Below are positions 6,001 to 61,012 of a DNA stretch of 61,012 nucleotides, piece by piece. Below the pieces are notes generated by a model. The model ran no database searches, was not told where the DNA came from, and saw nothing but the letters and a program-made list of their open reading frames with translations. The position numbers were made by a program, and so were the translations under genes. The DNA comes from a virus, in the IMG/VR virus record IMGVR_UViG_3300025120_000004, positions 1-61,012 of that record. One strand, 5' to 3'. The first letter of the stretch is position 1. Each line of letters begins with the position of its first letter.

Positions 6001-8401
6001 TATATTCTTTGTTTTTATTTGTTACAAATACTATCCACCTACCATTTAGGTCTCTTCCGTCTTTCGGTTTTGTTTCCGTCTTAAACAAAGCAAACGAATT
6101 TAGCCAACGATAAAACTCTGTTCTAGATATAGTACGTTTTGCTTTAGGTGCAAAGTCAGGATTGTCAGCTATGAATTCTAAATACAATTCATTCTTGTAT
6201 ATCTTTTCATTGAACCTTATACTTTCGTTTTTGTAATCATCATCAAACAGCCCACACCATTCAACAAACTCGTGACAGGTATCTGCTGATAAGTGTCTAA
6301 CAGTTTGGTTCTTGAAGTCTCCTTTTATTAATCCCTTTGATAAGTAGAACATAAGATTCTCAACCATATAGTTGTCAAAGGAACACCACTCTTGTTCATC
6401 CCATTCTGAAAACAATAGCTTACCAAATTCAACAAGTGGAGTAAAGTCTTTGGTATAGAACTGCGAGAACTCAAGTTCCCACTTCCTACGCTCAAAGGAA
6501 TTACCTCTACCCTTTATAGCATAGTTAGTTGTAATAGCTACCTTTGGTGACTTACTGAAAGGAATCTTTATAGCATCCTTGTTTTTCTTTTCTAATGTAA
6601 GCCCTTCGGTTACAACACTAAACAATCTTTCAAAGTCAAAATGTTTCTTTACATCATCAAAGCATAGTACCTGAGTGTCAGCACTTACTAATTGATAAGC
6701 AAAACTTTTCTCAAAATTAAAAGACTTACCATCAATAGTAACGAGCTTCTTCATTTGTGATAGTGCATTCATAAACAAACCCTTACCTGTTCCACCCTCT
6801 GGATTCTCTGATATTACCTCATCATTTAATATTATTGCAGGACAATAAGATAAATTCTTATAAGCATGAAGCATATAACCAATTGTACTACGCATTGATA
6901 ATATTGTTTGCTTGTTTCCTCCTGATATGTTATTTATAAATGTTTTGTAGTCGCAATCAAACGAATCACATAAGTCAAAGTCACGATCAATAACCTGGTC
7001 TTTCCAAACATAACCACCCAAGTCAAGATAATCAATAGTTGTTTTCTTGTCCTTTGTAACTTTTACTGCACAATTTCTATAGTATAAGTACGCACTATCT
7101 TTATCATCTTCTATAAAGTATACATCTACTGTACCTAGTAATGATAAGAACTCTTCCCTAAAGAATCTAGTCTTATCAGCAAAGTAATTATATACAGACA
7201 TATCATCAAGGTCCTCAAGATATCCTAAGATAAAATCTTTTATCTCCTCCTCATTAGTATGGTCAATAAGATTGTTTGTTACTCTAACAAATATAAAATG
7301 TTTACTACCCTCTGGACAGAACTTATAAAACCCATGGTCTTCTAAGAACTGTCTAAATAAGTAATGTATTATTGTTATAACCCCTTTGTCATTTTTATTC
7401 CAAAATCTTTTCTCGCTCTCATCTTCTTCAATGGAAGTAATAACAGAATCAATTACAGCGTCTTCAATTTGGGTTTCAGATAACTGAAGACGAATCTCTT
7501 TTTTTGACACACCTCTTTTAAGTTTCATTCTAACCTGATTTACCTTGTCTTCATCTTCATAATACTTTGAACCAAAGTTTTGTTTTTGTGAGTAGGCTGA
7601 ATTAATAGTGGTCTTTATCTCACTAATTTTAAAGTCACTGCTTTCAAACTGAGACATAATATATTCTGCCAATGACTTGCTTACTCCATAGTCATTGAAT
7701 GCTGCTGCCAATATGTATATGTTATTGTTTCTTTCTCCATCAATAATCCCATACTTCTTAGTCCACCACTTCATAAGAATATCTACTATCTTATTCTCAT
7801 CAGTAACAGGTATAGTTGGTCTAGAAGAATATTTATCTACAACCTTATACTCTTGTTCTTCTATCTTATCCCACAAAAAAGAATTCTTATTTATATATAT
7901 CAATGGATCGTATGATTCATAACATACTCTTGATACATTCTTACTAGTCTTATCAAAGTAGCTTGAATTAAAATACTTTTCTAATGACATAAAGTAATTC
8001 TTATGATTGTTTGGTTCTTTAGGTATCTTAACTAAAGCCTTAAGTCCGTTTCCACTTGGAGATATAAATACTGAATATGTGTATCTATCTTTTGATAGTC
8101 GTTCTTTTTCAGACATCATATCTTTCTTGGTTTTATAACCATCAAAGTCCAGGCATATAAACCCACTGTGTACAGTTATACTATCATCTGCTCTCTTGTT
8201 AAACATTCCTGAGAAACAAATAGCAGGTAGGCTTTTCTTTAAACCCTGCCTAATCTCTTTGTCTTTCTCAGAACGTATTTGCTTTATAAGCTCTTTAGAT
8301 GTTCCATCTTTTATTCTATCTAATATTGATTGTATATCTCTAAAGAATGGAGTAGATGTATCTTTTATATTTCTAAATATAGTAACTTGATTTTCATCCA
8401 T
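5975..8401 (-). CDS. Primase-helicase: primase-like N-terminus plus SF3 (DUF5906-like) helicase
   Basis: An 808-residue multidomain replication protein. Residues 1-180 resemble the BT4734-like/VirE N-terminal or AEP-like primase region, with CLDFDG at 83-88 (acidic pair) and SPSGNGLKALV at 114-124. Residues about 205-272 look like a primase C-terminal helical domain (GERNNNIY at 222-229). Residues 500-660 form an SF3 helicase: Walker A GGTGKG at 536-541, Walker B VLCFDD at 578-583, motif C VAITTN at 621-626 and arginine-finger candidates RR at 638-639. It is expected to prime and unwind phage DNA. With no DNA polymerase in the genome, synthesis presumably relies on the host polymerase. Its start codon overlaps a 26-bp block repeated upstream of groEL. 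Confidence 0.85.
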   Translation of the reverse strand: MDENQVTIFRNIKDTSTPFFRDIQSILDRIKDGTSKELIKQIRSEKDKEIRQGLKKSLPAICFSGMFNKRADDSITVHSGFICLDFDGYKTKKDMMSEKERLSKDRYTYSVFISPSGNGLKALVKIPKEPNNHKNYFMSLEKYFNSSYFDKTSKNVSRVCYESYDPLIYINKNSFLWDKIEEQEYKVVDKYSSRPTIPVTDENKIVDILMKWWTKKYGIIDGERNNNIYILAAAFNDYGVSKSLAEYIMSQFESSDFKISEIKTTINSAYSQKQNFGSKYYEDEDKVNQVRMKLKRGVSKKEIRLQLSETQIEDAVIDSVITSIEEDESEKRFWNKNDKGVITIIHYLFRQFLEDHGFYKFCPEGSKHFIFVRVTNNLIDHTNEEEIKDFILGYLEDLDDMSVYNYFADKTRFFREEFLSLLGTVDVYFIEDDKDSAYLYYRNCAVKVTKDKKTTIDYLDLGGYVWKDQVIDRDFDLCDSFDCDYKTFINNISGGNKQTILSMRSTIGYMLHAYKNLSYCPAIILNDEVISENPEGGTGKGLFMNALSQMKKLVTIDGKSFNFEKSFAYQLVSADTQVLCFDDVKKHFDFERLFSVVTEGLTLEKKNKDAIKIPFSKSPKVAITTNYAIKGRGNSFERRKWELEFSQFYTKDFTPLVEFGKLLFSEWDEQEWCSFDNYMVENLMFYLSKGLIKGDFKNQTVRHLSADTCHEFVEWCGLFDDDYKNESIRFNEKIYKNELYLEFIADNPDFAPKAKRTISRTEFYRWLNSFALFKTETKPKDGRDLNGRWIVFVTNKNKEYNDGDQLVF

Positions 8402-35168: not shown

Positions 35169-35452
35169 ATAATACTGAATTAAAATTAGAAATAATAAAA
35201 GCAGGTAAAAAAGCTGTAAAAGAACTTATAAAAGTTGCTAATGAAGGTATACTAAAAAAAGACCTAGATGGATTAGCTCCTGATATAGCAGCAGACAGAT
35301 TAAAAAATGCAGCGGCATCTAAGAAGCTTGCAATATTTGATGCTTTTGAAATCTTAACAAAGATTGAAGAAGAAAATAATATGATAGACATTAATAAAAA
35401 AGAAAGTAAAGCATCTTCATTTAAAGGATTTGCTGAAGGTAGATCAAAATAA
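35165..35452 (+). CDS. Putative small terminase subunit or terminase partner
   Basis: A 95-residue helical protein (LKLEIIKAGKKAVKELIKVA...ADRLKNAAASKKLAIFDAFEIL) directly before the large terminase, overlapping its ATG by one base. Small terminase subunits occupy this place and are helical DNA-binding proteins, but no HTH is obvious. Assignment is mainly positional. Confidence 0.45.
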   Translation: MNNTELKLEIIKAGKKAVKELIKVANEGILKKDLDGLAPDIAADRLKNAAASKKLAIFDAFEILTKIEEENNMIDINKKESKASSFKGFAEGRSK

Positions 35453-37677
35453 TGTACGAACAAACTTTATATAAAATACTAGATGATATTATACCTGAAA
35501 AGGAATTAAAGTCTAATAATAAAAAAAAGGCTTGGGTATACGGATATAATAAAGAATATGATATTGTTGTTATATCAAAAGATGGTACAATTGGTGAGGT
35601 TTATGAAATACAAAATTTAAAGATTGCATTACCAAAACAAAAAAATGTTTATCGTTTTAATAAAAATCATTGGGGTCAAATAGAATATCCTAAAGAACTA
35701 AGTAAAATAAAAAGTGTTTTTGATTGGGATAAATATCCAGATAATTTTAAGGAAAAGTGGTATGACTATATTGACAAAGAGTTTGAAAGAAGGGAAGAAG
35801 GTTTTTGGTTTAATAACAAAAACAATCCTACTTACATTACTGGTTCTCATTACATGTACTTGCGGTGGACAAAAATTGATGTTGGGCAGCCAAACTTTAG
35901 GGAATCAAATAGATTATTCTTTATATTCTGGGAAGCTTGCAAAGCAGACTCAAGAAGCTATGGAATGTGTTACCTTAAAAATAGACGATCAGGATTTAGT
36001 TTTATGTCATCATCAGAATTGGTTCATCTTGCAACCACATCAAAAGATTCACGTTATGGAATTTTATCCAAAACAGGTTCTGATGCAAAAAAAATGTTTA
36101 CAGACAAAGTTGTTCCCATATCGCTCAATTATCCGTTTTTCTTCAAACCTATTCAAGATGGAATGGATAGGCCAAAAACGGAGCTTGCGTATAGAGTTCC
36201 TGCGTCAAAACTTACAAGAAAAAAACTTGATGCAAATGAATCTATTAAAGAGCTTGAAGGATTAGATACTACTATTGATTGGAAAAATACAGGAGATAAC
36301 TCTTATGATGGAGAAAAGTTAAAATTACTAGCTCATGATGAAAGTGGTAAATGGGAAAGACCAGACAATATACTTAATAATTGGAGAGTAACAAAAACTT
36401 GTCTTAGATTAGGAAGTAGAGTTATAGGAAAATGTATGATGGGAAGTACATCTAATTCTATTGAAAAAGGTGGTGGTAATTTTAAAAAATTATACTCAGA
36501 TTCTAACGTAAAAAAAAGAAATAGAAATGGACAAACTAAATCAGGTTTATATTCATTGTTTATACCTATGGAATGGAATTATGAGGGTTTTATTGATATT
36601 TATGGTCATCCTGTATTTGATGTTCCAGAAAAAGAAATAGAAGGTCCATTTGGAGATATTATAGACCAAGGTGTTATAGAGCATTGGACTAACGAGGTAG
36701 ATGGATTGAAGTCAGATCCTGATGGATTAAACGAATACTATAGACAATTTCCTAGAACAGAGTCTCATGCATTTAGAGATGAAAGTAAACAATCATTATT
36801 TAATCTTCAAAAATTATATCAACAAATAGATTACAATGATTCTTTAATAAAAGATAGAGTTGTCACAAGAGGTTCTTTTAGTTGGAATAATGGAATAAAA
36901 GATACTACAGTTATTTTTACTCCTAATAATTCAGGAAGATTTTATGTTTCTTGGACTCCTAATAAAAATTTACAAAACAATTATTACTTTAAGAATGGAA
37001 TTAAATATCCTGGAAATGACCACATGGGAGCTTTTGGATGTGATAGTTACGATATTAGTGGTACTGTTGGTGGCGGTGGAAGTAACGGTGCTTTACATGG
37101 AATGACTAAGTTTCACATGGATGAAGGTCCTACAAACCATTTTTTTTTAGAATATATAGCAAGACCTCAAACAGCAGAGATATTTTTTGAAGATGTATTA
37201 ATGGCTTGTGTGTTTTATGGAATGCCAATATTAATAGAAAATAATAAACCTAGATTATTATATCATTTTAAGAATAGAGGATATAGAGGGTATAGTATGA
37301 ATAGGCCTGATAGACAGTATAATAAACTATCCAAAACAGAAAAAGAATTAGGAGGAATGCCTAATAGTTCTGAAGACATTAAACAAGCTCATGCAGCTGC
37401 TATAGAATCTTACATTGAAAAACATGTAGGATTTGATTTATCTGGAGCTTTTAGAGCTGAAGATGAAATAGGTTCTATGTATTTTACAAGAACATTAACA
37501 GATTGGGCAAGATTTAATATTAATAACAGAACAAAGTTTGATGCTTCTATTAGTTCAGGTTTAGCTATAATGGCTACACAAAAAAACCTGTATCAGCCCA
37601 TTAAAAAGAAATCAAAAATAAAACTTAACTTTGCAAGATATGACAATAAGGGAAGTTATAGCCAAATTATACAATAA
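35452..37677 (+). CDS. terL: Terminase large subunit
   Basis: A 741-residue packaging motor. The ATPase has a deviant Walker A, LKNRRSGFSFMSS at 175-187, where the expected Gly-Lys-Ser is Gly-Phe-Ser. Walker B LLAHDE is at 292-297 and coupling motif MGSTSN at 330-335. The RNase H-like nuclease domain follows with Asp531 (GCDSYD), Glu in LIENN near 597 and an acidic residue in SSEDIKQAH near 648. It packages phage DNA into procapsids. It is flanked by a putative small subunit and the portal, in the order common to podoviruses and crAss-like phages. Confidence 0.85.
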   Translation: MYEQTLYKILDDIIPEKELKSNNKKKAWVYGYNKEYDIVVISKDGTIGEVYEIQNLKIALPKQKNVYRFNKNHWGQIEYPKELSKIKSVFDWDKYPDNFKEKWYDYIDKEFERREEGFWFNNKNNPTYITGSHYMYLRWTKIDVGQPNFRESNRLFFIFWEACKADSRSYGMCYLKNRRSGFSFMSSSELVHLATTSKDSRYGILSKTGSDAKKMFTDKVVPISLNYPFFFKPIQDGMDRPKTELAYRVPASKLTRKKLDANESIKELEGLDTTIDWKNTGDNSYDGEKLKLLAHDESGKWERPDNILNNWRVTKTCLRLGSRVIGKCMMGSTSNSIEKGGGNFKKLYSDSNVKKRNRNGQTKSGLYSLFIPMEWNYEGFIDIYGHPVFDVPEKEIEGPFGDIIDQGVIEHWTNEVDGLKSDPDGLNEYYRQFPRTESHAFRDESKQSLFNLQKLYQQIDYNDSLIKDRVVTRGSFSWNNGIKDTTVIFTPNNSGRFYVSWTPNKNLQNNYYFKNGIKYPGNDHMGAFGCDSYDISGTVGGGGSNGALHGMTKFHMDEGPTNHFFLEYIARPQTAEIFFEDVLMACVFYGMPILIENNKPRLLYHFKNRGYRGYSMNRPDRQYNKLSKTEKELGGMPNSSEDIKQAHAAAIESYIEKHVGFDLSGAFRAEDEIGSMYFTRTLTDWARFNINNRTKFDASISSGLAIMATQKNLYQPIKKKSKIKLNFARYDNKGSYSQIIQ

Positions 37678-40134
37678 ATGGAGGATGTAAAAATTTCATT
37701 AAACCCAACAGGATTTCCTAGTCAATTTGTTTCTGACTCAGAAAAAAAATCTTATGAGTTCGGTTTACAAATAGGCCAGGCTATTCAATACGAATGGTTT
37801 AGAAAAGATGGTCGTCAAAGTAGATTTTATAGTCAATGGGCAGAGTTTCATAGATTACGATTGTATGCTCGTGGAGAACAATCTGTACAAAAATATAAAA
37901 ATGAATTAGCTATTGATGGAGATTTAAGTTATTTAAATCTGGACTGGACTCCTGTTCCTATTATTCCAAAATTTGTAGATATAGTAGTCAATGGAATGGC
38001 TGATAGAATATTTAAAGTAAATGCTTATGCTCAGGATAGCATGTCTTTAGATAAAAGAAGTGAATATCAAAAACAACTTCAAAAAGATATGTTAGCTAAG
38101 CCTGTAATGAAACAGGTTCAACAAGATTTAGGAATAAATACTTTTGCTACATCAGAAGAAGATGTGCCTAATAGTTCTGAAGAACTAGCTTTGCACATGC
38201 AACTTAAATATAAGCCTTCAATAGAAATAGCTGAAGAAGAAGCTATAAATACAGTTTTATCTGAAAATAGATATTATGAAATACAAAAGCAATTGTATTA
38301 TGACCAGACAATATTGGGAGTTTCAATGTGTAAAAACACCTTTAAGCCAGGTTCAGGTATTTCTATAGAATATGTAGACCCTGCTAATGTAGTATATAGT
38401 TATACTGAAGATCCTCATTTTGATGATTGTTTTTACTGGGGAGAAATTAAAACAATTCCTATTGTAGAGTTAAAAAAAATAGATACTAGTTTGACTAGAC
38501 AAGATATGGATGAAATATCTAAATATAGTCAAAGTTGGTATAATTACAATAATACTGCTCAATATTATAACAATAGTTTATTTAGTAGAGATAGTGCTAC
38601 AGTTTTATTTTTTAATTATAAGACTACAAATACTTTTACTTATAAGAAAAAAGTAAATGCCTCTGGAGCTGAAAAAGTTATTGAAAAAGAAGATACTTTT
38701 AATCCTACTTCAGAAATGCAAGAAGAAGGTAATTTTAAAAAAGTTTCTAAAACAATAGATGTATGGTATGAGGGGGTTATGGTTATGGGTACTAATATTC
38801 TTCTAAAATGGGAAATGTCTGAAAATATGGCTAGACCTCAATCTGCATCTCAAGAAGTTTATCCTGAATATGTAGCTTGTGCGCCTAGAATGTATAAAGG
38901 TGTTTTTGAATCATTAGTTAGACGTATGATTACGTTTGCAGATTTAATACAAATTACTCATTTAAAATTACAACAAGTAATATCTAGAGTAGTTCCTGAT
39001 GGTGTATTTATAGATGCAGATGGATTAAATGAAGTAGACTTAGGAACAGGGCAGGCATATAATCCTGAAGATGCATTAAGAATGTTTTTTCAAACAGGTT
39101 CTGTTATTGGTAGAAGCTATACACAGGATGGAGATTTTAACCAAGCTAAAGTACCAATACAACAATTAAACAGTAATTCAGGACAAGGTAAAATAAATAG
39201 CTTAATAGGTTCATATAATCATTATATGCAAATGCTAAGAGATGTTACAGGCCTCAATGAAGCTAGAGATGGATCAACACCAGATTCTTATTCATTAGTT
39301 GGATTGCAAAAATTAGCTGCTTTAAGTAGTAATACTGCAACCAGACATATTTTAGATGCAGGTTTACAAATAAGCCAAAGGCTATGTACTGCTTTATCTA
39401 GTAGAATTGCTGATTTATTAGAGTATTCAGAATTTAAAGATGAATTAACTAATCAGATAGGAAGATTTAATGTTTCTATAATTGATGAAATTAGTAAATT
39501 ATATTTAAGTGACTTTGGAATATTTATAGAAATAGAACCTGACGAAGAAGAAAGAAAAATGCTAGAACAAAATATTCAAATGGCATTACAAAGAGATTCT
39601 ATAAATTTAGAAGATGCTATTGATATAAGAGAAATAAGAAATTTAAAGTTAGCTAATCAAATACTTAAGTTAAAAAGAATAGGTAAACAAGATAGAGAGC
39701 AAAAAGAAAAAGCTGCTGCTGCACAGCAACAAGCTCAGATTAATGCTCAGTCTCAACAGATGGCAGCTCAATCAAAAATGCAACAATTCCAAATGGAAAA
39801 TCAAGCTGCTGTACAATTAGAGCAAGCTAAAAGTCAGTTTGCAGTTCAAAAAATGCAAGGTGAAGCTGCGATAAAAGCAGAGCTTATGAATCTTGAGTTT
39901 TCACTTCAAATGAAATTAAAAGGAGTAGATATAGATTTAAAAAAGATGGAGCAGGAAGGTTTGCAAAAACGAGAAACTGAAAGAGAAAATGCTAAATCAA
40001 ATAGAATATCTCAAGCTAATACAGAGCAATCAAAACTTATAGAGCAAAGAAAAAATAATCTACCTTCAGTTAGTTTTGAATCAAATGAAGATAGTTTAGA
40101 TGGATTTGACTTAGCAGAATTTGAGCCTAGATAG
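37678..40134 (+). CDS. Portal protein
   Basis: An 818-residue protein immediately after terL. The size, the long helical core (FESLVRRMITFADLIQITHL) and a Gln/Ala/Lys-rich coiled-coil C-terminus (about 675-780) fit the large portals of Bacteroidetes podoviruses. It would form the dodecameric DNA gate at the capsid vertex and bind terminase. No enzymatic motif is expected. Identity rests on order, length and architecture. Confidence 0.75.
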   Translation: MEDVKISLNPTGFPSQFVSDSEKKSYEFGLQIGQAIQYEWFRKDGRQSRFYSQWAEFHRLRLYARGEQSVQKYKNELAIDGDLSYLNLDWTPVPIIPKFVDIVVNGMADRIFKVNAYAQDSMSLDKRSEYQKQLQKDMLAKPVMKQVQQDLGINTFATSEEDVPNSSEELALHMQLKYKPSIEIAEEEAINTVLSENRYYEIQKQLYYDQTILGVSMCKNTFKPGSGISIEYVDPANVVYSYTEDPHFDDCFYWGEIKTIPIVELKKIDTSLTRQDMDEISKYSQSWYNYNNTAQYYNNSLFSRDSATVLFFNYKTTNTFTYKKKVNASGAEKVIEKEDTFNPTSEMQEEGNFKKVSKTIDVWYEGVMVMGTNILLKWEMSENMARPQSASQEVYPEYVACAPRMYKGVFESLVRRMITFADLIQITHLKLQQVISRVVPDGVFIDADGLNEVDLGTGQAYNPEDALRMFFQTGSVIGRSYTQDGDFNQAKVPIQQLNSNSGQGKINSLIGSYNHYMQMLRDVTGLNEARDGSTPDSYSLVGLQKLAALSSNTATRHILDAGLQISQRLCTALSSRIADLLEYSEFKDELTNQIGRFNVSIIDEISKLYLSDFGIFIEIEPDEEERKMLEQNIQMALQRDSINLEDAIDIREIRNLKLANQILKLKRIGKQDREQKEKAAAAQQQAQINAQSQQMAAQSKMQQFQMENQAAVQLEQAKSQFAVQKMQGEAAIKAELMNLEFSLQMKLKGVDIDLKKMEQEGLQKRETERENAKSNRISQANTEQSKLIEQRKNNLPSVSFESNEDSLDGFDLAEFEPR

Positions 40135-40184: not shown

Positions 40185-41285
40185 ATGGAAATTAAAGTAA
40201 AATCATTAGATTCTGTTCCAGAAAAATCTGTGCAGGAAGTAGAAGAAACTCTACTTAAAAAACACGAAGAAGAATTGAATGATAAATCTGACGATGTTGT
40301 TGAAGAGCAGCCTGTAGAAAATTTATCAGAACAAGTTGAAGTTGAAAGTCCAACTATAAAAGACGAAGACGTTCTTTCATATATTAAAAATAGATATAAT
40401 AAAGATATATCTTCAGTTGATGATTTGTTTGCTGAAAGAGAGCAATCAGAAAGTTTACCAGAGGATGTATCAAAATATTTAGATTATAAAAAAAACACAG
40501 GGCGTGGATTTGAAGATTTCGTAAAAATAAACAAAAATTACGATGACTTAAATGAAGACCAGGTGTTATCAGAGTATTATTCTTTAACAGAATCAGATTT
40601 AGATAATGAAGATATTCGTTATTTAATGGACGAAAAGTTTTCGTATGATGAAGAAATTGATGACGAAAATGAAATAAAGAAAAAGAATATTGCTAAAAAA
40701 AGAGAACTTTCAAAAGCTAAAAAGTATCTTAATGATGTAAAAGAACAATACAAAATTCCTCTTGAGTCAAGTGGGAGTTCGTTGTCTGAAGATCAACAAA
40801 AAGATATTGAAGCTTATAGAAGTTATATAGAAGAATCTAAATCTACTTTAGAGGCTCACGAAAGAAAAAATAAATTTTTCTTAAAGAAAACAAATGAAGT
40901 TTTTAATCCTGAATTCAAAGGTTTTGAGTTCAATGTAGGAGATAAAACCGTTAAGTATTCTTACGGTGATGTTAATGAAATGAAATCTAAGCAAAGTGAT
41001 TTAAACAATTTAGTCAAAAAATATGTTGACGACGATGGTTTGATTTCAAATGCTAAAGGGTGGCATACAGCATTAAGTGCTGCTATGGATCCTCAAAGAT
41101 TTGCTAATTATTTTTATGAGCAAGGTAAAGCTGATGCTATAGAAGATGTTACTAAAAAAAGTAAAAACATTAATATGAGCATGAGACAAACTCCTCAAGC
41201 AATTGGCGACACTGGATTTAAAGCTAGACCAGTTTCAGATACAAGTGGAAAAGGATTAAAAATTAGAAGTAAAAAAAATAGTTAA
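40185..41285 (+). CDS. Putative scaffolding protein
   Basis: A 366-residue, highly acidic protein (Glu/Asp/Ser-rich N-terminal 160 residues), helical in the middle with coiled-coil tendency, and a short basic C-terminus (ISM-like RQT, GKGLKIRSKKNS). Placed between portal and major capsid protein, these are hallmarks of phage scaffolds, whose basic tail binds the capsid protein. No protease motif is visible. Confidence 0.6.
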   Translation: MEIKVKSLDSVPEKSVQEVEETLLKKHEEELNDKSDDVVEEQPVENLSEQVEVESPTIKDEDVLSYIKNRYNKDISSVDDLFAEREQSESLPEDVSKYLDYKKNTGRGFEDFVKINKNYDDLNEDQVLSEYYSLTESDLDNEDIRYLMDEKFSYDEEIDDENEIKKKNIAKKRELSKAKKYLNDVKEQYKIPLESSGSSLSEDQQKDIEAYRSYIEESKSTLEAHERKNKFFLKKTNEVFNPEFKGFEFNVGDKTVKYSYGDVNEMKSKQSDLNNLVKKYVDDDGLISNAKGWHTALSAAMDPQRFANYFYEQGKADAIEDVTKKSKNINMSMRQTPQAIGDTGFKARPVSDTSGKGLKIRSKKNS

Positions 41286-41303: not shown

Positions 41304-42725
41304 ATGGCAGTAGATGCAGTACCTGGGTTTGACTTACAACCAAGTTCAGAACAGGTTTTATTACAGACAAATTATATTACTAACTTCGATTTCTTAAATC
41401 AGTATTTACCAGATACTTACGAAAAAGAATTCGAACGTTATGGAAACAGAACAGTAGCTTCATTCTTACGAATGGTTGGTGCTGAAATGCCTTCTAACTC
41501 TGACCTTATCAAATGGGCTGAGCAAGGAAGATTACACACGAAGTATACAAATGTTACTTCTCAAGCAGCGGCAGCTCAAGACATTGCAACTTTAGATATT
41601 AATGATGCTTTAGTTCCTGGAACAGGAGATATCGCATTAAGAGTTGGTCAAACAGTTATGCTTTCTGATAGCTCTATAAATTCAACAAATAGTAACAAAG
41701 CAATAATTACAGCAGTAGATACTGCAAATGCTACTATTGATGTTGCATATTATGAAGCAGGTGGTCAAACAATGGCTGCAAATGTTCAGTGTTCATTATT
41801 TATCTATGGTTCTGAGTTCCAAAAAGGAACTAACGGAATGCAAGGTCAATTAGAAGCTGACGATCAGATATTTTCTAATTCACCAATTATCATAAAAGAC
41901 CATTACGCAGTAAGCGGTTCTGATATGGCTCAAATTGGATGGATTGAAGTAACTACTGAAAACGGTGCAACTGGATTCTTGTGGTATCTAAAATCAGAAC
42001 ACGAAACTCGTTTACGTTTTGAGGATTATTTAGAGACAGCAATGGTTGAGGCAGTACCAGCTGAAGCACTCAGTGGTGTAGCAGCAATTGCAGCAGGAGT
42101 TGCAAGTGGAGTAGGTAACAAAGGTTCTGAAGGACTTTTTTACGTAGTTGAGCAAAGAGGAAATGTATGGAGTGGTGGAAACCCAACAGCTCTTACAGAC
42201 TTTGACGACATTATTCAAAGATTAGACAAGCAAGGTTCTATTGAAGAAAATGTTATTTTCTTAAACAGACAGTTTGGATTTGATATTGATGATATGTTAG
42301 CTGCTCAAAACTCTTATGGTAACCCAGGAGGTACATCATACGGTCTTTTTGACAATGATGAAGAGATGGCTCTTAACTTAGGATTCTCAGGATTCCGTAG
42401 AGGTTATGACTTCTATAAGACAGACTGGAAATACTTAAACGACCCAACAATGCGTGGTGATATTGTAGGTGGTGCAATCAATGGAATTTTAGTTCCTGCA
42501 GGTTCTACTACTGTATATGACCAAGTATTAGGAAAGAACGCTAAGCGACCTTTCTTACATGTTCGTTATAGAGCTTCTGAAACAGAAGACAGACGTTACA
42601 AGACTTGGATTACAGGTTCAGCAGGTGGAGCAGCTACTTCTAGCTTAGATGCTATGGAAGTAAACTTCTTATCTGAAAGAGCTTTATGTACTTTAGGTGC
42701 TAACAACTTCTTTATCTTTAAATAA
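41304..42725 (+). CDS. Major capsid protein (HK97-fold)
   Basis: A 473-residue protein after the putative scaffold. Its C-terminal RPFLHVRYRASETEDRRYKTW and SLDAMEVNFLSERALCTLGANNF resemble the ends of capsid proteins of flavobacterial and crAss-like phages. It uses more C-ending codons (AAC, TTC, GAC) than neighbouring genes, as expected for the most abundant protein. A terminator follows at 42746. It is probably assembled with help from the putative scaffold and possibly the phage chaperonins (inference). Confidence 0.8.
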   Translation: MAVDAVPGFDLQPSSEQVLLQTNYITNFDFLNQYLPDTYEKEFERYGNRTVASFLRMVGAEMPSNSDLIKWAEQGRLHTKYTNVTSQAAAAQDIATLDINDALVPGTGDIALRVGQTVMLSDSSINSTNSNKAIITAVDTANATIDVAYYEAGGQTMAANVQCSLFIYGSEFQKGTNGMQGQLEADDQIFSNSPIIIKDHYAVSGSDMAQIGWIEVTTENGATGFLWYLKSEHETRLRFEDYLETAMVEAVPAEALSGVAAIAAGVASGVGNKGSEGLFYVVEQRGNVWSGGNPTALTDFDDIIQRLDKQGSIEENVIFLNRQFGFDIDDMLAAQNSYGNPGGTSYGLFDNDEEMALNLGFSGFRRGYDFYKTDWKYLNDPTMRGDIVGGAINGILVPAGSTTVYDQVLGKNAKRPFLHVRYRASETEDRRYKTWITGSAGGAATSSLDAMEVNFLSERALCTLGANNFFIFK

Positions 42726-53238: not shown

Positions 53239-55161
53239 ATGGGAAATAAATTAGATTCAATAAGATATGCATTAGGTCAAGGCCTTACAGGTGTAGCAAA
53301 GCCAACAAAAACTTTAGAGGCTGTTGATAATTTTGTAGAGGATGTAGAAGCTTGGAAAAAAAACATAGACGATCAACGTCTTAAGTTAAAAACTGATACT
53401 GAAACAAAAGTAAGAGAAGCTGAAAAAGAAGCTTATGCTAATTTACCTAATACTAAGACAGAAAGAGACCTTGTAATACAAGGTCTAGCTAATTATAAGG
53501 ATATGCTTTATAATAATATGTCTATGGTTCAGAATGGTGTTTTAAAACCAGAAGATAATCTTATATTTCAGGAAAACGGAAAGCAATCATTTGAAATAGC
53601 TGCTGATTTAATAAATAACTATAGCACTAGAAAAGAACAAGCCATGAAAGAGGCTAGTGGATATTATGATGATGAAGGAAATTTTGTAGAACCTACAGCA
53701 GGAGATTATCAAGCTGCTCTTCAACGAATAAATGATGAGTTTATGATTCCAGGGGGACAGGAATTTAAATTTATGAGCAATGGAATGGGTAATATTACTA
53801 TGTTCAAAACTAAAATTGATGAAGAAACAAAAACAAAAGTTTTAGATTTAGATGCTGACGGAAATCCAATTCCAATAGAGGGTCTGTCTAACGTTCCTAT
53901 GTTAGCTTATCAAAACAACAGAAATGCTAATGCCCCTATGTTCGTTCTTGCTAATGAGGTTACTAAGTTCACAAGAAAAGATGGTCTTTTAGCTACTTCT
54001 TATCAGGAGCTGATTGATGTTGAAGGCATGGTGGGTGGTGTTAAGGATAATATGAGTCAAAGCCCAGGGTTTCAGGAGTCAGTAAAACAGGCATCAAGTT
54101 CTCTTACTAATACTGTTCCTAAAGTTGTTAGTATGTTAGCAGACAATGGACCTGATGCACAACAAACAACAACATTGACTCCTTCAGAATGGGATGCTTT
54201 ATCTGATGCACAAAAAAACGAAACTATATCTTTTGAATATACTGATTTTGATGGTTCAACTAAAAAAGGAGTTAAAAGTAAATATCTACAGGTTAAGCTT
54301 GCTACTAATAATTCAATGGTCGCTGTACTAAGTGACCGAGATCAATTGGCAGCAGAACAAATAGCACAGACAGCTCTTATATCTTCATTAGAGCAAACCA
54401 TAGACCCAGGAGTAAAGGTTGGTGATTTCGCTGCACGAGTAGACCCAAACAAGGATAAGCAAGTAGATACTTTTACACTTATTGACCAAGTAGTGATAGA
54501 TGGAAATTCCAACAGCTTAGAAGCTATAGTTAGGCAAGACCAAAATATAAATGATTACAAAGTTACTAAAGAAGGTATTGTCTTTGTAAAGACAGATGGA
54601 ACTCTAACAGCTCCTATTGACGTTAGCTCAGGTTCTGCTGTTGATGTAGGTAAGCTGTTTGCTTCAGAGCTAGGATATAATGCAGAAACATACGCTAATA
54701 AATCTAAAGCAGGCTCAGTAATTATTAACACAAAAGTTAAAGATTTCACAGGCTTTACGTCTCCTAGAGAAGAATACGGAGGTCTAGGTAGATTAGCTAT
54801 TAGTAAGGATAAAAATAAAATTACCTATGCGTCTGAATATATTAAAAAAGCTGATGAAAGATTGATGGCAGCTCAAGCTCAGGTTGTAGTTGATAAGGCT
54901 CGTGCAAGGTATGGGAATATACCTAATATAAGAGTAAGTTTTGATGACTTATCTAAGCCGAATGGAGAAGATGAGATAAATCTAACTATAGATGGAGTGA
55001 AATACAAAAACGTAGGTTATACATCAGATAATTATCAATGGTTAATGGAGAATATAGATAGAGCGTTAATAGGAGAAACACCAGAGGGGAAAATTAGTGG
55101 AGGTAGTACAAATAGTGGAGGTGGAGGTTTAGATAATCTAGGTAAAAAAGAAGGTGAATAA
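53239..55161 (+). CDS. Putative internal virion protein
   Basis: A 640-residue charged helical protein (long coiled coil near 30-70: VEDVEAWKKNIDDQRLKLK) without enzyme motifs. It ends in a Gly/Ser-rich tail, and its stop codon shares a base with the start of the giant gene (TAATG). With the 323-residue protein and the giant protein it forms a three-gene ejection set like T7 gp14-gp15-gp16 (inference). Confidence 0.55.
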   Translation: MGNKLDSIRYALGQGLTGVAKPTKTLEAVDNFVEDVEAWKKNIDDQRLKLKTDTETKVREAEKEAYANLPNTKTERDLVIQGLANYKDMLYNNMSMVQNGVLKPEDNLIFQENGKQSFEIAADLINNYSTRKEQAMKEASGYYDDEGNFVEPTAGDYQAALQRINDEFMIPGGQEFKFMSNGMGNITMFKTKIDEETKTKVLDLDADGNPIPIEGLSNVPMLAYQNNRNANAPMFVLANEVTKFTRKDGLLATSYQELIDVEGMVGGVKDNMSQSPGFQESVKQASSSLTNTVPKVVSMLADNGPDAQQTTTLTPSEWDALSDAQKNETISFEYTDFDGSTKKGVKSKYLQVKLATNNSMVAVLSDRDQLAAEQIAQTALISSLEQTIDPGVKVGDFAARVDPNKDKQVDTFTLIDQVVIDGNSNSLEAIVRQDQNINDYKVTKEGIVFVKTDGTLTAPIDVSSGSAVDVGKLFASELGYNAETYANKSKAGSVIINTKVKDFTGFTSPREEYGGLGRLAISKDKNKITYASEYIKKADERLMAAQAQVVVDKARARYGNIPNIRVSFDDLSKPNGEDEINLTIDGVKYKNVGYTSDNYQWLMENIDRALIGETPEGKISGGSTNSGGGGLDNLGKKEGE

Positions 55162-58100
55162 TGGAAGAGTTATATAATGCACTTGTTGAACAAGGAAAAT
55201 ACACAAAATCTTTTGAGGATTTTAAAGTACAGTTTGGAGAGCCTGAAAAAACTAAACTTCTTTATGATGCATTAAATTCTTCAGGAGATTACACTAAATC
55301 TTTTGAAGACTTTACGTATCAATTTGGATTCGCTGAAAAAAAAAATCAAGTCGTTACTCCTTCCACTTCAGAAGAGGTCGTTACGGAATCCACTACAGAA
55401 ATCACGCAACCAACAATTCCTGGCTCTTCGGATTCTTCCGAAAATATTCCTGATGTACAGATTGAAAACAATGTAGAAATTAAAGAGGATTTAGAAGTTA
55501 CAGATATACCTGAACAAAAATACTCTAATGAGTTATTTGATGAATTAACTTCTCAAGTACAAATAGCTCAACAAATAAATACCGAACAAAATAAAAGAAA
55601 CTTTTATAAAAATAAAGCTGAATCTTCTTTTGTTAGAAGAAAACCGAAACCAAAAAAGAAAAATCCTGATGCCTTATTAGAAATAGATAACGATTTAAAA
55701 GAAAAAATATTAAGCGATTTTAATATTAGAAAATCTATTGAATATGGAATTGTTAGCGAAACAGATGTAGATAATGCTCTTAAAGGAGATATTAATTTAA
55801 TAAATAAATTAAAAGAAATATCTGTAAAAAATCCAAAGGAATACAAAAAATTATTAAGCGAAAAAAGATTAGATAAAACTTATGCTTTTGAAGAAACATC
55901 TGAATTAAATGAATACCAAGTTAATCAAGATGAAGAATCTAGAAGTTTAGATTTAAAGAAAAAGATTGAAGCTTATGATTTAGAGACACAAAGACTTTTA
56001 GCTGAAAATCCTAATGCAACTGAACAAGAAATAAATGAATTAGTTTATAGGCCTAACGACCCTAACACTTATACAGATGAAGAATTTGAAATTTATGAGA
56101 ATATGGATTATTCTCCAACTGGATTTGAAGATTCTAACATACATAAAATGTATGACAGTGAAAAGTTAAAGTCAATTGAAGGATTTAATGTAAAAGATTT
56201 TGATGGGTACTTAAAAGAGCAGGGATACATGGACAGATACGTGGAGCTTCTTGATGACGAAACTATATCTGAAGATGGAAGATATCAAGATTATTCAGGG
56301 AACTACAATCCAACTCTTGCAGCCGAAAGATTAAAAGCACAATATTTAACAAACTACATAAATAATCAAGTAGAAAGAAATGTAGAGTTTCAAGTTTTAG
56401 ATTATCAATTAAAAAATAAAGGCCGACACCCTTCTTTAGATGGTGTAGAAATTAGTTTTAATACAGGGGTAGATGATATTGCTATGGCTTCTTACATAGA
56501 GGAACAATTTCCTACATTAACTGCAAAGCTTAAAAACCAAGATGTTGAAAATCAAGAAAACTATCAAAGATATTTAGATGGAGATAACCCTTGGTTTACA
56601 CAATCGGTAAAACAAGGTTGGCGTTCTGTAGAAGATAGATTACATAGCTCTTCTAAAGGAGTTTATGGATTTATTGGAATGAATAGTGTGGCTGATGAAA
56701 TACGAATGCGAGATGCTCAAGATGATTTAGAGAGAGATGATTTTATGAGATATGCATATACGTCAGGTAAAAAATCTTTTTATAATGGTAGAGAGTACGG
56801 AATAGATGAAAGAGGTCAGATATTTGATTTAGAAATAAAGAAAAACGTAACAAACGTTTTAACAGATACTATGGCTGATGCTATAAGAAAAAAGGTAGCT
56901 GGAAGCAGTGAGACATTTAAAAGTTTTAGTGGCTCAGGTACGGTAATAGCAACAACAGGTATAGCTGCTGATATGTTATTGCAAATATCTCTTACTCGTG
57001 GAGTAGGTAATTTAGGTAGAGGTGGTGCGGCTTTTTTAGGTAGTTTCGATAAAGGTAAAAAAGTTGTTAGTGGATTATCTAGTATACCAATGAAAGCAAC
57101 TACAGCTTCGGCTATGATTGCTCAAGGAACATTATTTTCAACTAATTTAGCTAGTAGCACTTATGACCAGGCTATTGCTAATGGATTAGATCAAGCTACA
57201 GCTATAGAACTAAGGCAAAAGGCAGGTATGCAGGGATTTGGATTAGGGTCATTAACAGCTCCAATATCTACACAGACTCTAGCCATGAATAAAATATTTG
57301 GTAAAAAGGGAACTGAAAAACTAAGTAGAGGACTTGTTGATGCTTATCAAAAAGCAGGAGATAAAGGTTTTGCTGCATACATTCAAAGGGTTAAAGGAAC
57401 AATAATACAAAACTATCCTTCTTATTTAAAAGAAGGAGGTAAAGAGATATTTCAGGAAAATGTACAGCAGGCAGGTCAAGCTTTTGTGATTGCAGAAAAT
57501 GTAAATGAGATTGCACAAAAAGAAATAATGAATAACACCATTACAGGTGCGGAGTACACAAACACAACAATACTAGCAGGTCTTGCAGGTTTATTAATGC
57601 CTTTTGGTGGTGATCTTAAATCAGCCACATCTAAATCTATTAAGGCTAACTTTAGTCCAGGGGAAGCCGCAATTGACAGATTAGAAGCTTTACATGGTTT
57701 ATCTAAAGATGTAGATAAAACAAAAGAGTTTTTAAATAGTATGGTAACCAAAGGTGTTTATACTGAGGAACAAGTTTCTAATCTATTGTCTGATATTGAT
57801 TTGTATGTAAACACTATAAACAGTATACCAACAAACTTGAGTCCTGAAACTTCATTGTTTGTAATGCAGTCAATTAACGACATTCAAAAACAAGAGGAGT
57901 TAAAAAAGAAAAGAGATAAATCATTTCATCCAGAGATAGATGAAAAAATACAAGAACTTAGAAACGAAATAACAACACGAACTCAATTTGATTATGTTAA
58001 TGCACAAGGCAAGTTAAGGCTAAAGGACCAAGCAGCCAAAGAACTTACTAGAGAAGCAGAAGAAAGAGGAGAAAAGAATTTTACTATAGATGATGGAGCT

Positions 58101-61012
58101 ATAACTCAGAGAGCTGTAGACAACTTTAGTATAATGGATGTAGATGAAAAGTTAGAATATACAGACTTAAATAAACAAGATTTAAAAACCGATAAAAAAC
58201 AAGACGATGCCATTCAAAAGCCAAGCACAGAGGAGCAAGTGTTACAAGATGATGCAGGAAGCGAAAAAGAGGGGGGAGACTCCCAAGTGGAACTGCGACA
58301 AGTGGGAGAAGGAGACATTGAGTCAGACACTACCCAAACGAAAGAAGAAGAAAGTGAAACGCAAACCGATACAACTAGCGACACGACTACGCAGACAGAT
58401 ACTGAACAGTTAGTAACTGAAGAGACATATACGCTACCTGAAACAGAAAAGGGGAGGGAAGAAGACTTTGAGATTATAGACAATCGACAAGGTAAAGCGG
58501 ATCTAGAAATATTTGAGGATGGTGAAGGAAAATGGTATGTTGAAAACAAAAAAACAGGTAGAACTGTCGCACTTAGAACAAAGGCTCAGGCTAAGGCTGA
58601 AGTAAAAAACCCAACTTATGATTATGGTGAGGGAGATGTTATTCAGGTAACTCAAGAAACAACTAAATCAACACCTTCCCCCACAGTAGACACATCCACT
58701 GATGAGGAAGTGATGAGTGTGAACAATAAGATTGAGTCATTTGCAAATCGTATTGTTGAAGGAGGAAATCAAGAATCTTTTTCAGATGATGCAATTCAGT
58801 TTTATGCCGAAAATAGAGAAGCAATTGATAAAGCCGTTGCTCAAAAGAAAAAGAATATTCCTAAAGATAAGTCACGAGAAAGAACTTTAGCTATCAAAAT
58901 TGCTAGAGGAGATACAGAGTTCAGTAATGCAGATATAGATTTATACGCAGGTTCTGAAGCTGATGTTCAAGCTGAGGTAGAAGCTATTGCTAAAACAAAT
59001 AGTCAAACCGTAACAGCCGACACATACAAAGCCATATTAGCTTCAACAAAAAGCACTACCAATAAAGATATGGCAAAGCCTGAAACGGAAAATGCACAAA
59101 GAAAAAGATTTTGGAAATCGTGGAATCAATCTGCTAAAGAAAAGAAAATGGACTTGAAGCAGAAAAGAAAAAGTCTAAATGATGGTATAAAAGCCTATGC
59201 AAAAAAGAGAAAAGGTAAAATTACTGTTCCTCAACTTAGAGCTGTTTTAAACAAAATAAATAATGAAAAATTCAATTTAGATAATCCTGCTGCTGTCAAA
59301 GAAATTCAGCAGTATGTAGAAAAAGTTTTTTCTGATGCAGATTTTGCAAATGATATTGATATAGCAAACAAACTAAAAACAAGAGCTACTAAAAAACTAA
59401 ACTCAGGGAAACTAGGAGATAACGGAAACTTAAATGGAGCTGTGTCTCAAATAATTTTAGCTCCTGTAACTGATTTAACTCCTTCTCAACTAAAATCATA
59501 CAATGAGTTTTTACAAAAAATAGCTAAACGAGACAAAAAAACAAAATTAGATAGAGAGTTAATTCAAGAAGCAAATGATTTACTTAACTCTATAACTCCT
59601 AAGGCAGAAACTGAACAGGCGCTAGCTAAAATTGAAAAGCAAAAAGAAAGTGATAAAAAAGTAGTAAATAAAATTCTTAACCCAGAGGTAAGTGGAGAAA
59701 CTATTATAGAAGAAAACTCTGATTTCATTCAAAATAAATTAGATGCTTTAGACTCTGGCACATTAGAAATTCTTGTTGATAAAGTAAATGCAGCAGAAAA
59801 CGAAAGCAACTCAGAGCTTGTTCAAGAGTTAAATGATTATGCAGAGAATAGACAAAAGCTTATAAATAACACTACTAAAAAGTCTAGAAACGTAAACTTA
59901 AATAACCTAAGCAAAATTTCTTTAGAACAAAGTGTTGGCCCTAGAACTTTAAAAGGTTTAAATAAAGGTCAGTTAGCGATGCTTACAGGAACAGAGCTTT
60001 CTCAGCTAGATGTTTATTTAGATAATATGTCTGAAGGTTTTTATACTCATTTCACAAATAATATAGCTCAAAAAGTAGCTGCTAATGATAGGTCTGTTAA
60101 TATGAAACCTATTTTAGATAAAATGTTTACAGTAAAAGGTAAGTTTTCTACCATGAGACAGTATGCAGCTGCTAGTGTAAAAAATGAATTAGGAAAGGTT
60201 GGCTTTGGTTCTTCAAAAGCGGCTAGACAGATAGGTATTAGAGGTCAAATGATTAGGTCTAACCCACTAAGTGTCATGGATCAAATGTTTGGGAACTATA
60301 AAAACAATACTATATATGAAAATGCTATACGACCTACTGCACAAGCGCACGCTAGATTTAAAAATTGGATTAACGGACAGACTGATACTATTGATACAAT
60401 AGAGTCTTTAATAGCACCTAGTAGAACAGAAGGTATAAATCAATCGGTAAAAAGAAGATTTGAATTAACGACATACTTGCTACAATTAGAATATGAATCT
60501 AACCCAAACAAAAGGGGAACTAACCCAGCTATAAAGTTTATAGAAGATACTATAGACAGATATAATTCTGATAAAAGAGGTAGTAAGTATAATGAAAATA
60601 GTATAGCTATACTTAAGAAAATAGCAAAACAGTACAGTCAGAATGGGCAAATATCTCTCAAAAAGATGGATGATGCTATGTCTACAAAAACTAAAAAAGC
60701 ATTAAAACTATTACAAGGCATTTATTCAGGTTTAGGAGAGCTTCAATCTTATGCAACTAGAATTGTTAGAGGTAATGAACTTGACTTAGTAAATAATTAT
60801 GTTCATCATAAAGCGGATTTTAAAGGTGAAGAAATAGACGATGCTAATTTTCAAAACGCAATAAGTTTTTTAAGTTTGAAGCCAGGGACAAAATCAAGTA
60901 CATCTTTTGAAAGGGCAGGAGTAACGACTATAGATTTTGATCCTATAACAACTGCTTTAAGAGCTACAAGAAATACAGGAATGGATTATTTTATGAGTAA
61001 TGAAATATCTAC
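55161..61012 (+). CDS. N-terminal 1950 residues of the 2500-residue giant ejection-type protein (continues at 1-1778)
   Basis: ATG at 55161 opens a frame that runs off the window and continues across the circular junction to 1778. Residues 1-55 hold two near-identical modules (LYNALVEQGKYTKSFEDF and LYDALNSSGDYTKSFEDF). Two hydrophobic regions (about 590-700 and 794-816) could be membrane-active. Residues about 1010-1090 are a low-complexity Thr/Glu/Asp linker, exactly where another gene is encoded in the +1 frame. The rest is mostly charged helix. No lytic transglycosylase or RNA polymerase motif was found. Size and place suggest a large ejection protein that crosses the envelope with the genome. 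Confidence 0.75.
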   Translation, partial: MEELYNALVEQGKYTKSFEDFKVQFGEPEKTKLLYDALNSSGDYTKSFEDFTYQFGFAEKKNQVVTPSTSEEVVTESTTEITQPTIPGSSDSSENIPDVQIENNVEIKEDLEVTDIPEQKYSNELFDELTSQVQIAQQINTEQNKRNFYKNKAESSFVRRKPKPKKKNPDALLEIDNDLKEKILSDFNIRKSIEYGIVSETDVDNALKGDINLINKLKEISVKNPKEYKKLLSEKRLDKTYAFEETSELNEYQVNQDEESRSLDLKKKIEAYDLETQRLLAENPNATEQEINELVYRPNDPNTYTDEEFEIYENMDYSPTGFEDSNIHKMYDSEKLKSIEGFNVKDFDGYLKEQGYMDRYVELLDDETISEDGRYQDYSGNYNPTLAAERLKAQYLTNYINNQVERNVEFQVLDYQLKNKGRHPSLDGVEISFNTGVDDIAMASYIEEQFPTLTAKLKNQDVENQENYQRYLDGDNPWFTQSVKQGWRSVEDRLHSSSKGVYGFIGMNSVADEIRMRDAQDDLERDDFMRYAYTSGKKSFYNGREYGIDERGQIFDLEIKKNVTNVLTDTMADAIRKKVAGSSETFKSFSGSGTVIATTGIAADMLLQISLTRGVGNLGRGGAAFLGSFDKGKKVVSGLSSIPMKATTASAMIAQGTLFSTNLASSTYDQAIANGLDQATAIELRQKAGMQGFGLGSLTAPISTQTLAMNKIFGKKGTEKLSRGLVDAYQKAGDKGFAAYIQRVKGTIIQNYPSYLKEGGKEIFQENVQQAGQAFVIAENVNEIAQKEIMNNTITGAEYTNTTILAGLAGLLMPFGGDLKSATSKSIKANFSPGEAAIDRLEALHGLSKDVDKTKEFLNSMVTKGVYTEEQVSNLLSDIDLYVNTINSIPTNLSPETSLFVMQSINDIQKQEELKKKRDKSFHPEIDEKIQELRNEITTRTQFDYVNAQGKLRLKDQAAKELTREAEERGEKNFTIDDGAITQRAVDNFSIMDVDEKLEYTDLNKQDLKTDKKQDDAIQKPSTEEQVLQDDAGSEKEGGDSQVELRQVGEGDIESDTTQTKEEESETQTDTTSDTTTQTDTEQLVTEETYTLPETEKGREEDFEIIDNRQGKADLEIFEDGEGKWYVENKKTGRTVALRTKAQAKAEVKNPTYDYGEGDVIQVTQETTKSTPSPTVDTSTDEEVMSVNNKIESFANRIVEGGNQESFSDDAIQFYAENREAIDKAVAQKKKNIPKDKSRERTLAIKIARGDTEFSNADIDLYAGSEADVQAEVEAIAKTNSQTVTADTYKAILASTKSTTNKDMAKPETENAQRKRFWKSWNQSAKEKKMDLKQKRKSLNDGIKAYAKKRKGKITVPQLRAVLNKINNEKFNLDNPAAVKEIQQYVEKVFSDADFANDIDIANKLKTRATKKLNSGKLGDNGNLNGAVSQIILAPVTDLTPSQLKSYNEFLQKIAKRDKKTKLDRELIQEANDLLNSITPKAETEQALAKIEKQKESDKKVVNKILNPEVSGETIIEENSDFIQNKLDALDSGTLEILVDKVNAAENESNSELVQELNDYAENRQKLINNTTKKSRNVNLNNLSKISLEQSVGPRTLKGLNKGQLAMLTGTELSQLDVYLDNMSEGFYTHFTNNIAQKVAANDRSVNMKPILDKMFTVKGKFSTMRQYAAASVKNELGKVGFGSSKAARQIGIRGQMIRSNPLSVMDQMFGNYKNNTIYENAIRPTAQAHARFKNWINGQTDTIDTIESLIAPSRTEGINQSVKRRFELTTYLLQLEYESNPNKRGTNPAIKFIEDTIDRYNSDKRGSKYNENSIAILKKIAKQYSQNGQISLKKMDDAMSTKTKKALKLLQGIYSGLGELQSYATRIVRGNELDLVNNYVHHKADFKGEEIDDANFQNAISFLSLKPGTKSSTSFERAGVTTIDFDPITTALRATRNTGMDYFMSNEIS
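58207..58413 (+). CDS. Nested gene in +1 frame: small basic MPFKSQAQ-type phage protein
   Basis: A 68-residue frame wholly inside the giant gene, shifted by one base. It starts MPFKSQAQRSKCYKMMQ and continues with PKWNCDKWEKET, LPKRKKKKVKRKP. This is the layout of a small phage family that I recognise from isolated genes (MPFKSKAQ..., then Trp-Cys, then KWEKET-LP). The host frame at the same place is a Thr/Glu-rich linker, as expected where the second frame is the constrained one. Lys codons here are mostly AAG, unlike the AAA-rich genome. The start has an A-rich leader but no own promoter. Function is unknown, and its basic nature suggests nucleic-acid binding. Confidence 0.6.
   Translation: MPFKSQAQRSKCYKMMQEAKKRGETPKWNCDKWEKETLSQTLPKRKKKKVKRKPIQLATRLRRQILNS
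60886..61012. repeat. Right copy of 127-bp terminal direct repeat
   Basis: Identical to bases 1-127. See the left copy for interpretation. Any count of genes or bases should treat this stretch once. Confidence 0.95.

Follow-up and report, generated by a model that had tools for sequence, protein, structure and literature searches.

A small basic-protein gene nested in the +1 frame of a giant phage gene has probably moved between virion genes as a dual-coding unit

The analyzed stretch of viral DNA (61,012 nucleotides; hereafter, the window) carries a small gene for a 68-aa basic protein (58207 to 58413, plus strand; ATG to TAG) that lies wholly in the +1 frame of a giant virion-type gene (55161 to 61010, plus strand; 1,950 codons, with no stop before the window ends). 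We consider it highly probable that this is a real small gene, that it is dual coding with an acidic linker of its host protein, and that it has moved as a unit between giant-gene, scaffold-gene, and free positions.

A conserved small gene out of frame within a giant gene

The product of the nested open reading frame (ORF) is MPFKSQAQRSKCYKMMQEAKKRGETPKWNCDKWEKETLSQTLPKRKKKKVKRKPIQLATRLRRQILNS, with the layout MPFKSQAQ...KWNCDKWEKET...K-rich. An earlier note on this DNA had described the basic +1-frame ORF together with a local rise in G+C content and an increased use of AAG, and the sequence confirms all of these features. The G+C content is 0.485 at 58200 to 58399 (versus 0.27 to 0.40 in 200-bp intervals that do not overlap the ORF), and AAG accounts for 9 of the 15 Lys codons. 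Over 54 nested copies, the AAG share of Lys codons is 0.73, compared with 0.35 in the host genes outside the overlap.

The length of the ORF is weak evidence because, when the host gene is shuffled synonymously, 25 of 500 replicates yield a +1 ORF of at least 68 aa (0 of 500 for the +2 frame); therefore, its relatives must decide. This intrinsic openness of the +1 frame is what would favor a chance open frame with a meaningless product, derived from a linker rich in Thr, Glu, and Asp. Such an origin is scarcely credible given the homologs at 95 nested and 21 free viral loci, in annotated phage genes, and in an unrelated host gene, as well as the frame-specific constraint in the overlap (see below), and the free-standing homologs refute it. 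Judged from these relatives, the ORF at 58207 to 58413 is a real conserved protein-coding gene.

Searches of Pfam and PHROGs with the window protein returned no usable match, and no Rfam family matched at the nested region. The homologs were instead found by tblastn, which gave 94 confirmed stretches in viral contigs, from which 80 loci were kept; in most of these 80, the gene is nested (+1) within either a giant gene or one of approximately 400 codons. Two scans combined yielded 153 distinct loci, bacterial contigs included. The viral loci comprised 95 nested in the +1 frame, none nested in the +2 frame, 21 free, and 4 in longer ORFs; these are counts of phylogenetically related sequences rather than independent events, and many of the records are fragments. 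Free-standing phage homologs, to which the earlier note had pointed, thus exist, and they include members annotated as genes of their own in phage 023Pt_psg01 and Streptomyces phage FlowerPower.

The nested product is a member of a family that we denote MPFKSQAQ...LPKR...K. In an alignment of 34 sequences, M1, P2, S5, and Q8 are invariant, F3 and A7 are conserved in at least 90%, and L42 is nearly invariant. The window copy carries the N-terminal MPFKSQAQ, the KWEKET-like region, the LP[KER] motif, and the Lys/Arg-rich tail (i.e., KWEKET...LPKRKKKK). Among phage records, the nested product matched 68 Flavobacterium records (Elemovirus) by tblastn; among the matches listed, each lies within a gene annotated as "structural protein." One record examined in detail has a 42-aa ORF in the +1 frame of a 3,694-codon gene, and the nested gene is unannotated. 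Annotation has therefore overlooked a conserved gene in 68 Elemovirus isolate records and probably in many metagenomic phages too.

Several other sequences touch on this family. A related family (MPFKSQAQRRKFAQLLVEGKISNETFEEWNRETG...) occurs, apparently free-standing, in contigs of metagenome-assembled genomes (MAGs) of Acidobacteria, Chloroflexi, and Gemmatimonadales (L273 to L302). "Nested" calls in GC-rich bacterial contigs, some of them in the +2 frame, were rejected by judgment as by-products of long chance ORFs; these copies look like ordinary free-standing genes. At four loci (L063 764, L068 6001, L083 326, and L230 1941), MPFKSQAQ forms the N terminus of a longer ORF (122 to 299 residues), and these ORFs are possible fusions. 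A divergent member, MPFKS[KQ]KQEKYLMINNPKLYKKWK... (MPFKSKKQEKYLMINNPKLYKKW...), is nested (+1) in a giant gene at L091 8016, L103 7914, and L140 2009; the L091 and L103 copies line up with the same giant-gene linker. The Cellulophaga and Tenacibaculum relatives (Calle_3, phi13:2, and Gundel_1) contained no family member in the stretches read. The phage family phrog_1375, which has no recorded function, was matched weakly by 7 of 31 alignment members (best E value, 0.00075), though not by the window copy.

Constraint in the nested frame and acidity in the host frame

In four groups of relatives, variation within the overlap is greatest at the third positions of the nested codons. Of the codons that differ in the overlap, 10 to 11% are synonymous in the host frame and 35 to 61% in the nested frame, while the corresponding values for the host flanks are 36 to 56% (four groups). 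Among loci chosen regardless of the nested gene, 12% and 8% of the differing host codons in the overlap are synonymous. The earlier proposal that the nested frame is the constrained one finds support in this per-frame comparison (host, 8 to 12%; nested, 35 to 61%), which indicates that purifying selection acts in the nested frame. The same substitutions bear on whether the region could instead be a conserved DNA or RNA element (e.g., a packaging or recombination site) with the ORF as its by-product. The high nucleotide identity between giant- and scaffold-located copies would suit such an element, which is nevertheless highly improbable, as substitutions cluster at nested third positions, free-standing copies differ in wobble composition, and Rfam gave no match.

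The host-frame reading of the overlap (58206 to 58412, plus strand) is an acidic linker of Glu, Asp, Thr, and Gln near host residue 1016 (DAIQKPSTEEQVLQDDAGSEKEGG...). In a wobble test, the nested gene was recoded synonymously by exact sampling with the codon usage of the host and with host stops disallowed, and the host frame was then read. Over 52 nested copies, the net acidity of the host linker was +10.6, versus an expected -7.8 (mean z, 5.7); for the window linker, it was +16, versus an expected -13.9 (z = 8.3). With the Lys codons locked, the mean z of the nested copies was still 4.9, and free-standing copies, tested without the stop rule, had a mean z of 0.34. The share of AAG is 84% where this codon turns the host residue from Lys into Glu and 32% where a C starts the following codon. 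The host frame in the overlap is not idle: the wobble bases of the nested gene are biased toward an acidic linker.

We propose that the first and second positions of the nested codons hold the basic protein and that the third position, equivalent to position 1 of a giant-frame codon, is chosen for acidity; the giant protein would thereby gain an acidic, probably disordered linker. Lys and Arg codons read one base on would give Glu if the wobble base were G, while a +2 reading would give Lys and Arg or stops. The best attainable host acidity ranges from +14 to +30 in the +1 frame and from -11 to +8 in the +2 frame, and a +2 reading of the window protein would also force a host stop. Only the +1 frame permits an acidic linker, which explains why nesting at the viral loci is always in that frame. 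The wobble bias thus shows how two oppositely charged proteins share one sequence, and the same-frame rule follows.

Probable separate initiation of the nested gene

The start context of the nested ATG (58187 to 58206, plus strand) is A rich and G poor and contains no Shine-Dalgarno sequence, resembling ordinary starts elsewhere in these phages. In the sequences preceding 54 nested ATGs, which are related copies and not independent sites, the mean A and G contents are 0.66 and 0.08, respectively, and no Shine-Dalgarno-like site was found; the means are 0.37 and 0.21 for other +1 ATGs of the same genes and 0.53 and 0.08 for real gene starts. Genes of Bacteroidota phages commonly lack Shine-Dalgarno sites. 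The A-rich, G-poor context fits separate initiation in such phages, and the nested protein may well initiate on its own inside the giant-gene message. Alternatively, ribosomes translating the giant gene might shift by +1, in which case the product would be a shortened giant protein ending in a basic tail instead of a separate small protein. Although the frame is indeed +1 and the upstream region is A rich, as slippery sites can be, frameshifting is very unlikely: conservation starts precisely at M-P-F-K-S, whether members are nested or free-standing, the upstream context resembles that of gene starts, and frameshifting in the scaffold-nested copies would cut the scaffold short at about 50 residues.

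The giant host gene and turnover of the nested copy

The size of 2,500 residues that the earlier note gave for the giant gene, of which the window shows 1,950 codons, is correct by way of a relative, L088, whose frame has 2,501 codons and whose C-terminal region is 99% identical. At the corresponding position, Elemovirus has a gene annotated as "structural protein," and Pfam searches with the giant proteins gave nothing solid. Seventy-eight loci were picked by the giant C terminus alone, regardless of the nested gene. By our tally, the small gene is nested in the +1 frame in 55 of these, free a few bases after the giant stop in 6, a broken remnant in 2, beside a split giant ORF in 1, and absent from the stretch in 14, half of which are cut by a contig end. 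In six records with a giant homolog (L110, L112, L113, L114, L125, and L133), no copy was found anywhere in the whole record.

The earlier note had named, as an observation that would count against it, giant-gene homologs that keep the linker and carry stops in the +1 frame. Such a case occurs in one lineage (L102/L122 8082 to 8192, equivalent to L021/L022), in which the nested start is lost, an internal stop is present, and the giant frame keeps part of the linker; the 43-kb record L122 has no other copy besides this broken gene. Given the 55 intact copies, the broken copy reads as a secondary loss. On the genomes compared, the gene is not universally needed, as six giant-bearing records lack it and one lineage has it broken. 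A second, truncated copy (MPFQSQAQRSKLL, followed by a stop) lies at 6222 to 6260 in L104 and at 6218 to 6256 in L105; in each record, the same giant gene also holds the intact nested gene, approximately 675 bases farther downstream. Together with the broken copies in L102/L122, this partial second copy reveals turnover.

Just after the nested gene, window host residues 1100 to 1161 are 46% identical to L078 residues 571 to 637, compared with about 26% for the giants otherwise, which suggests that modules have been shuffled around the linker. The giant frame of L153 (ORF from 9344) and L156 (ORF from 7859) is reduced in length or split, reflecting a gene break or an assembly error.

Three locations in related phages

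The head region of the window provided synteny anchors on the plus strand: the terminase large subunit (35452 to 37677; phrog_6681; E value, 2.4e-172), the portal protein (37678 to 40134; phrog_6547; E value, 2e-147), from which the tree of relatives was built, a 366-aa gene at the scaffold position that lacks the nested gene (40185 to 41285; phrog_16786; 38% identity to L035 over 277 aa), and a 473-aa gene at the capsid position (41304 to 42725; phrog_13704, a head and packaging family; E value, 5.4e-102). In the scaffold-nested relatives, the homolog of the gene at 40185 to 41285 carries the nested gene. This host gene of about 400 codons sits between the portal and capsid-position genes; PHROGs gives it no function, and we name it a putative scaffold from its position. 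In related phages that share the order terminase-portal-scaffold-capsid, the small gene is either nested in the giant gene, nested in the putative scaffold gene, or located immediately after the giant gene.

With the overlap masked, the host genes fall into three groups without cross-group similarity at an E value of 1e-5 (the giants, the approximately 400-codon genes, and a smaller giant group). The portals are homologous in 31 of the 32 records searched. The portal tree groups the scaffold-located copies in a single clade, places the free copies among the giant-located ones, and leaves Elemovirus (giant-located) outside both. Six changes of location are needed on this tree when "none" and the outgroup are included as labels, with the direction of the moves unrooted. 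One full copy was found per record, with no second full copy in any record searched, the record of the window included.

The best-matching pairs of giant- and scaffold-located copies share 85 to 90% identity in the nested DNA, while identity in the flanks is 0.49 to 0.64, near the background medians of 0.54 to 0.58. The earlier note had proposed that an existing gene landed in a linker and that the giant frame stayed open through it. Acquisition by the host gene is probable, since the small gene is also present in an unrelated host gene. A single landing through which the frame merely stayed open does not agree with the wobble bias toward acidity or with at least three locations in related phages. 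One specific form of the history, to which we give even chances, is a portable dual-coding cassette copied as a unit between unrelated virion genes, always in the frame that yields the linker, with a basic product that may bind the acidic linker specified by these very bases (e.g., during head assembly). Being tolerated in linkers, the cassette could have moved as a unit among the giant gene, the putative scaffold gene, and free positions. The free gene might instead have landed independently in the giant and scaffold genes, its wobble bases being reshaped in parallel with no ready-made cassette. Free copies do lie immediately after giant genes and, in other phages (L053 and L062), right behind the portal gene, and acidity pressure from the host could make wobble bases converge. 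We nevertheless regard independent landings as rather unlikely, because 85 to 90% identity that includes wobble positions, between flanks at background level, is explained more simply by transfer of dual-coding DNA.

Comparison with known overlapping genes

The Rz1 gene of lambda lies inside Rz in the +1 frame, and spanin genes can be embedded, overlapped, or separated; a survey found no spanin family that mixes embedded members with overlapped or separated ones (PMC6139136). Embedded outer-membrane spanins (o-spanins) such as Rz1 are likewise small phage genes wholly inside another gene, in the +1 frame and often unannotated. However, the o-spanin partners are lysis proteins that form one complex, while the MPFKSQAQ family occurs in two unrelated hosts or free, with no lysis role indicated. 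An Rz1-like identity was rejected, as inspection of the nested protein sequence revealed neither the hydrophobic signal nor the lipobox of an outer-membrane lipoprotein.

In viruses, new frames arise inside old genes, and disorder has been noted among their products (PMC8227390). The present case resembles overprinting in that two frames share one stretch and one product is probably disordered, but an overprinted newcomer is taxonomically restricted, whereas here the nested frame is widespread and the host linker looks newer. The nested gene does not fit a de novo overprinted gene, as its family is also free-standing in unrelated phages and in bacterial contigs. Overlapping genes are usually explained as new genes arising inside old ones; here, the inner gene is widespread and the outer linker appears to be fitted around it. 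The presence of the same inner gene in two unrelated outer genes and alone opens its entry, residence, and exit to comparison.

Another close parallel is the giant structural gene of Elemovirus (Flavobacterium phages; e.g., MT497069.1), which has the same +1 nesting of a 42-aa MPFKSKAQ gene and lies at the end of the virion module. Outside the overlap, the Elemovirus giants have no strong direct BLASTP similarity to the window giant, and they belong to one homology group with it through intermediates. A literature search covering few subscription journals found no widespread small gene in two unrelated hosts with a fitted linker.

Predicted structure and possible roles

The AlphaFold2 model of the nested protein has helices at residues 6 to 22 and 30 to 38 (pLDDT, 81; pTM, 0.45), and the gene product, a small, basic phage protein, may have a two-helix core. 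In the unrelated phages L053 and L062, the free gene lies directly after the portal gene and is followed by the genes for the scaffold and/or major head protein. Because free copies in other phages often adjoin portal and scaffold genes, head assembly or DNA packaging is the most likely role of the protein, although we suggest it only tentatively. The FlowerPower copy adjoins a holin gene, and this copy and those in bacterial MAG contigs are compatible with other roles as well. A PDB search by sequence gave chance matches only, and Foldseek returned no PDB match. Against predicted viral structures, Foldseek gave weak matches (E values, 0.007 to 0.24), two of them to giant-virus proteins (Terrestrivirus and Harvfovirus; 34 to 35% identity), hinting at a wider family.
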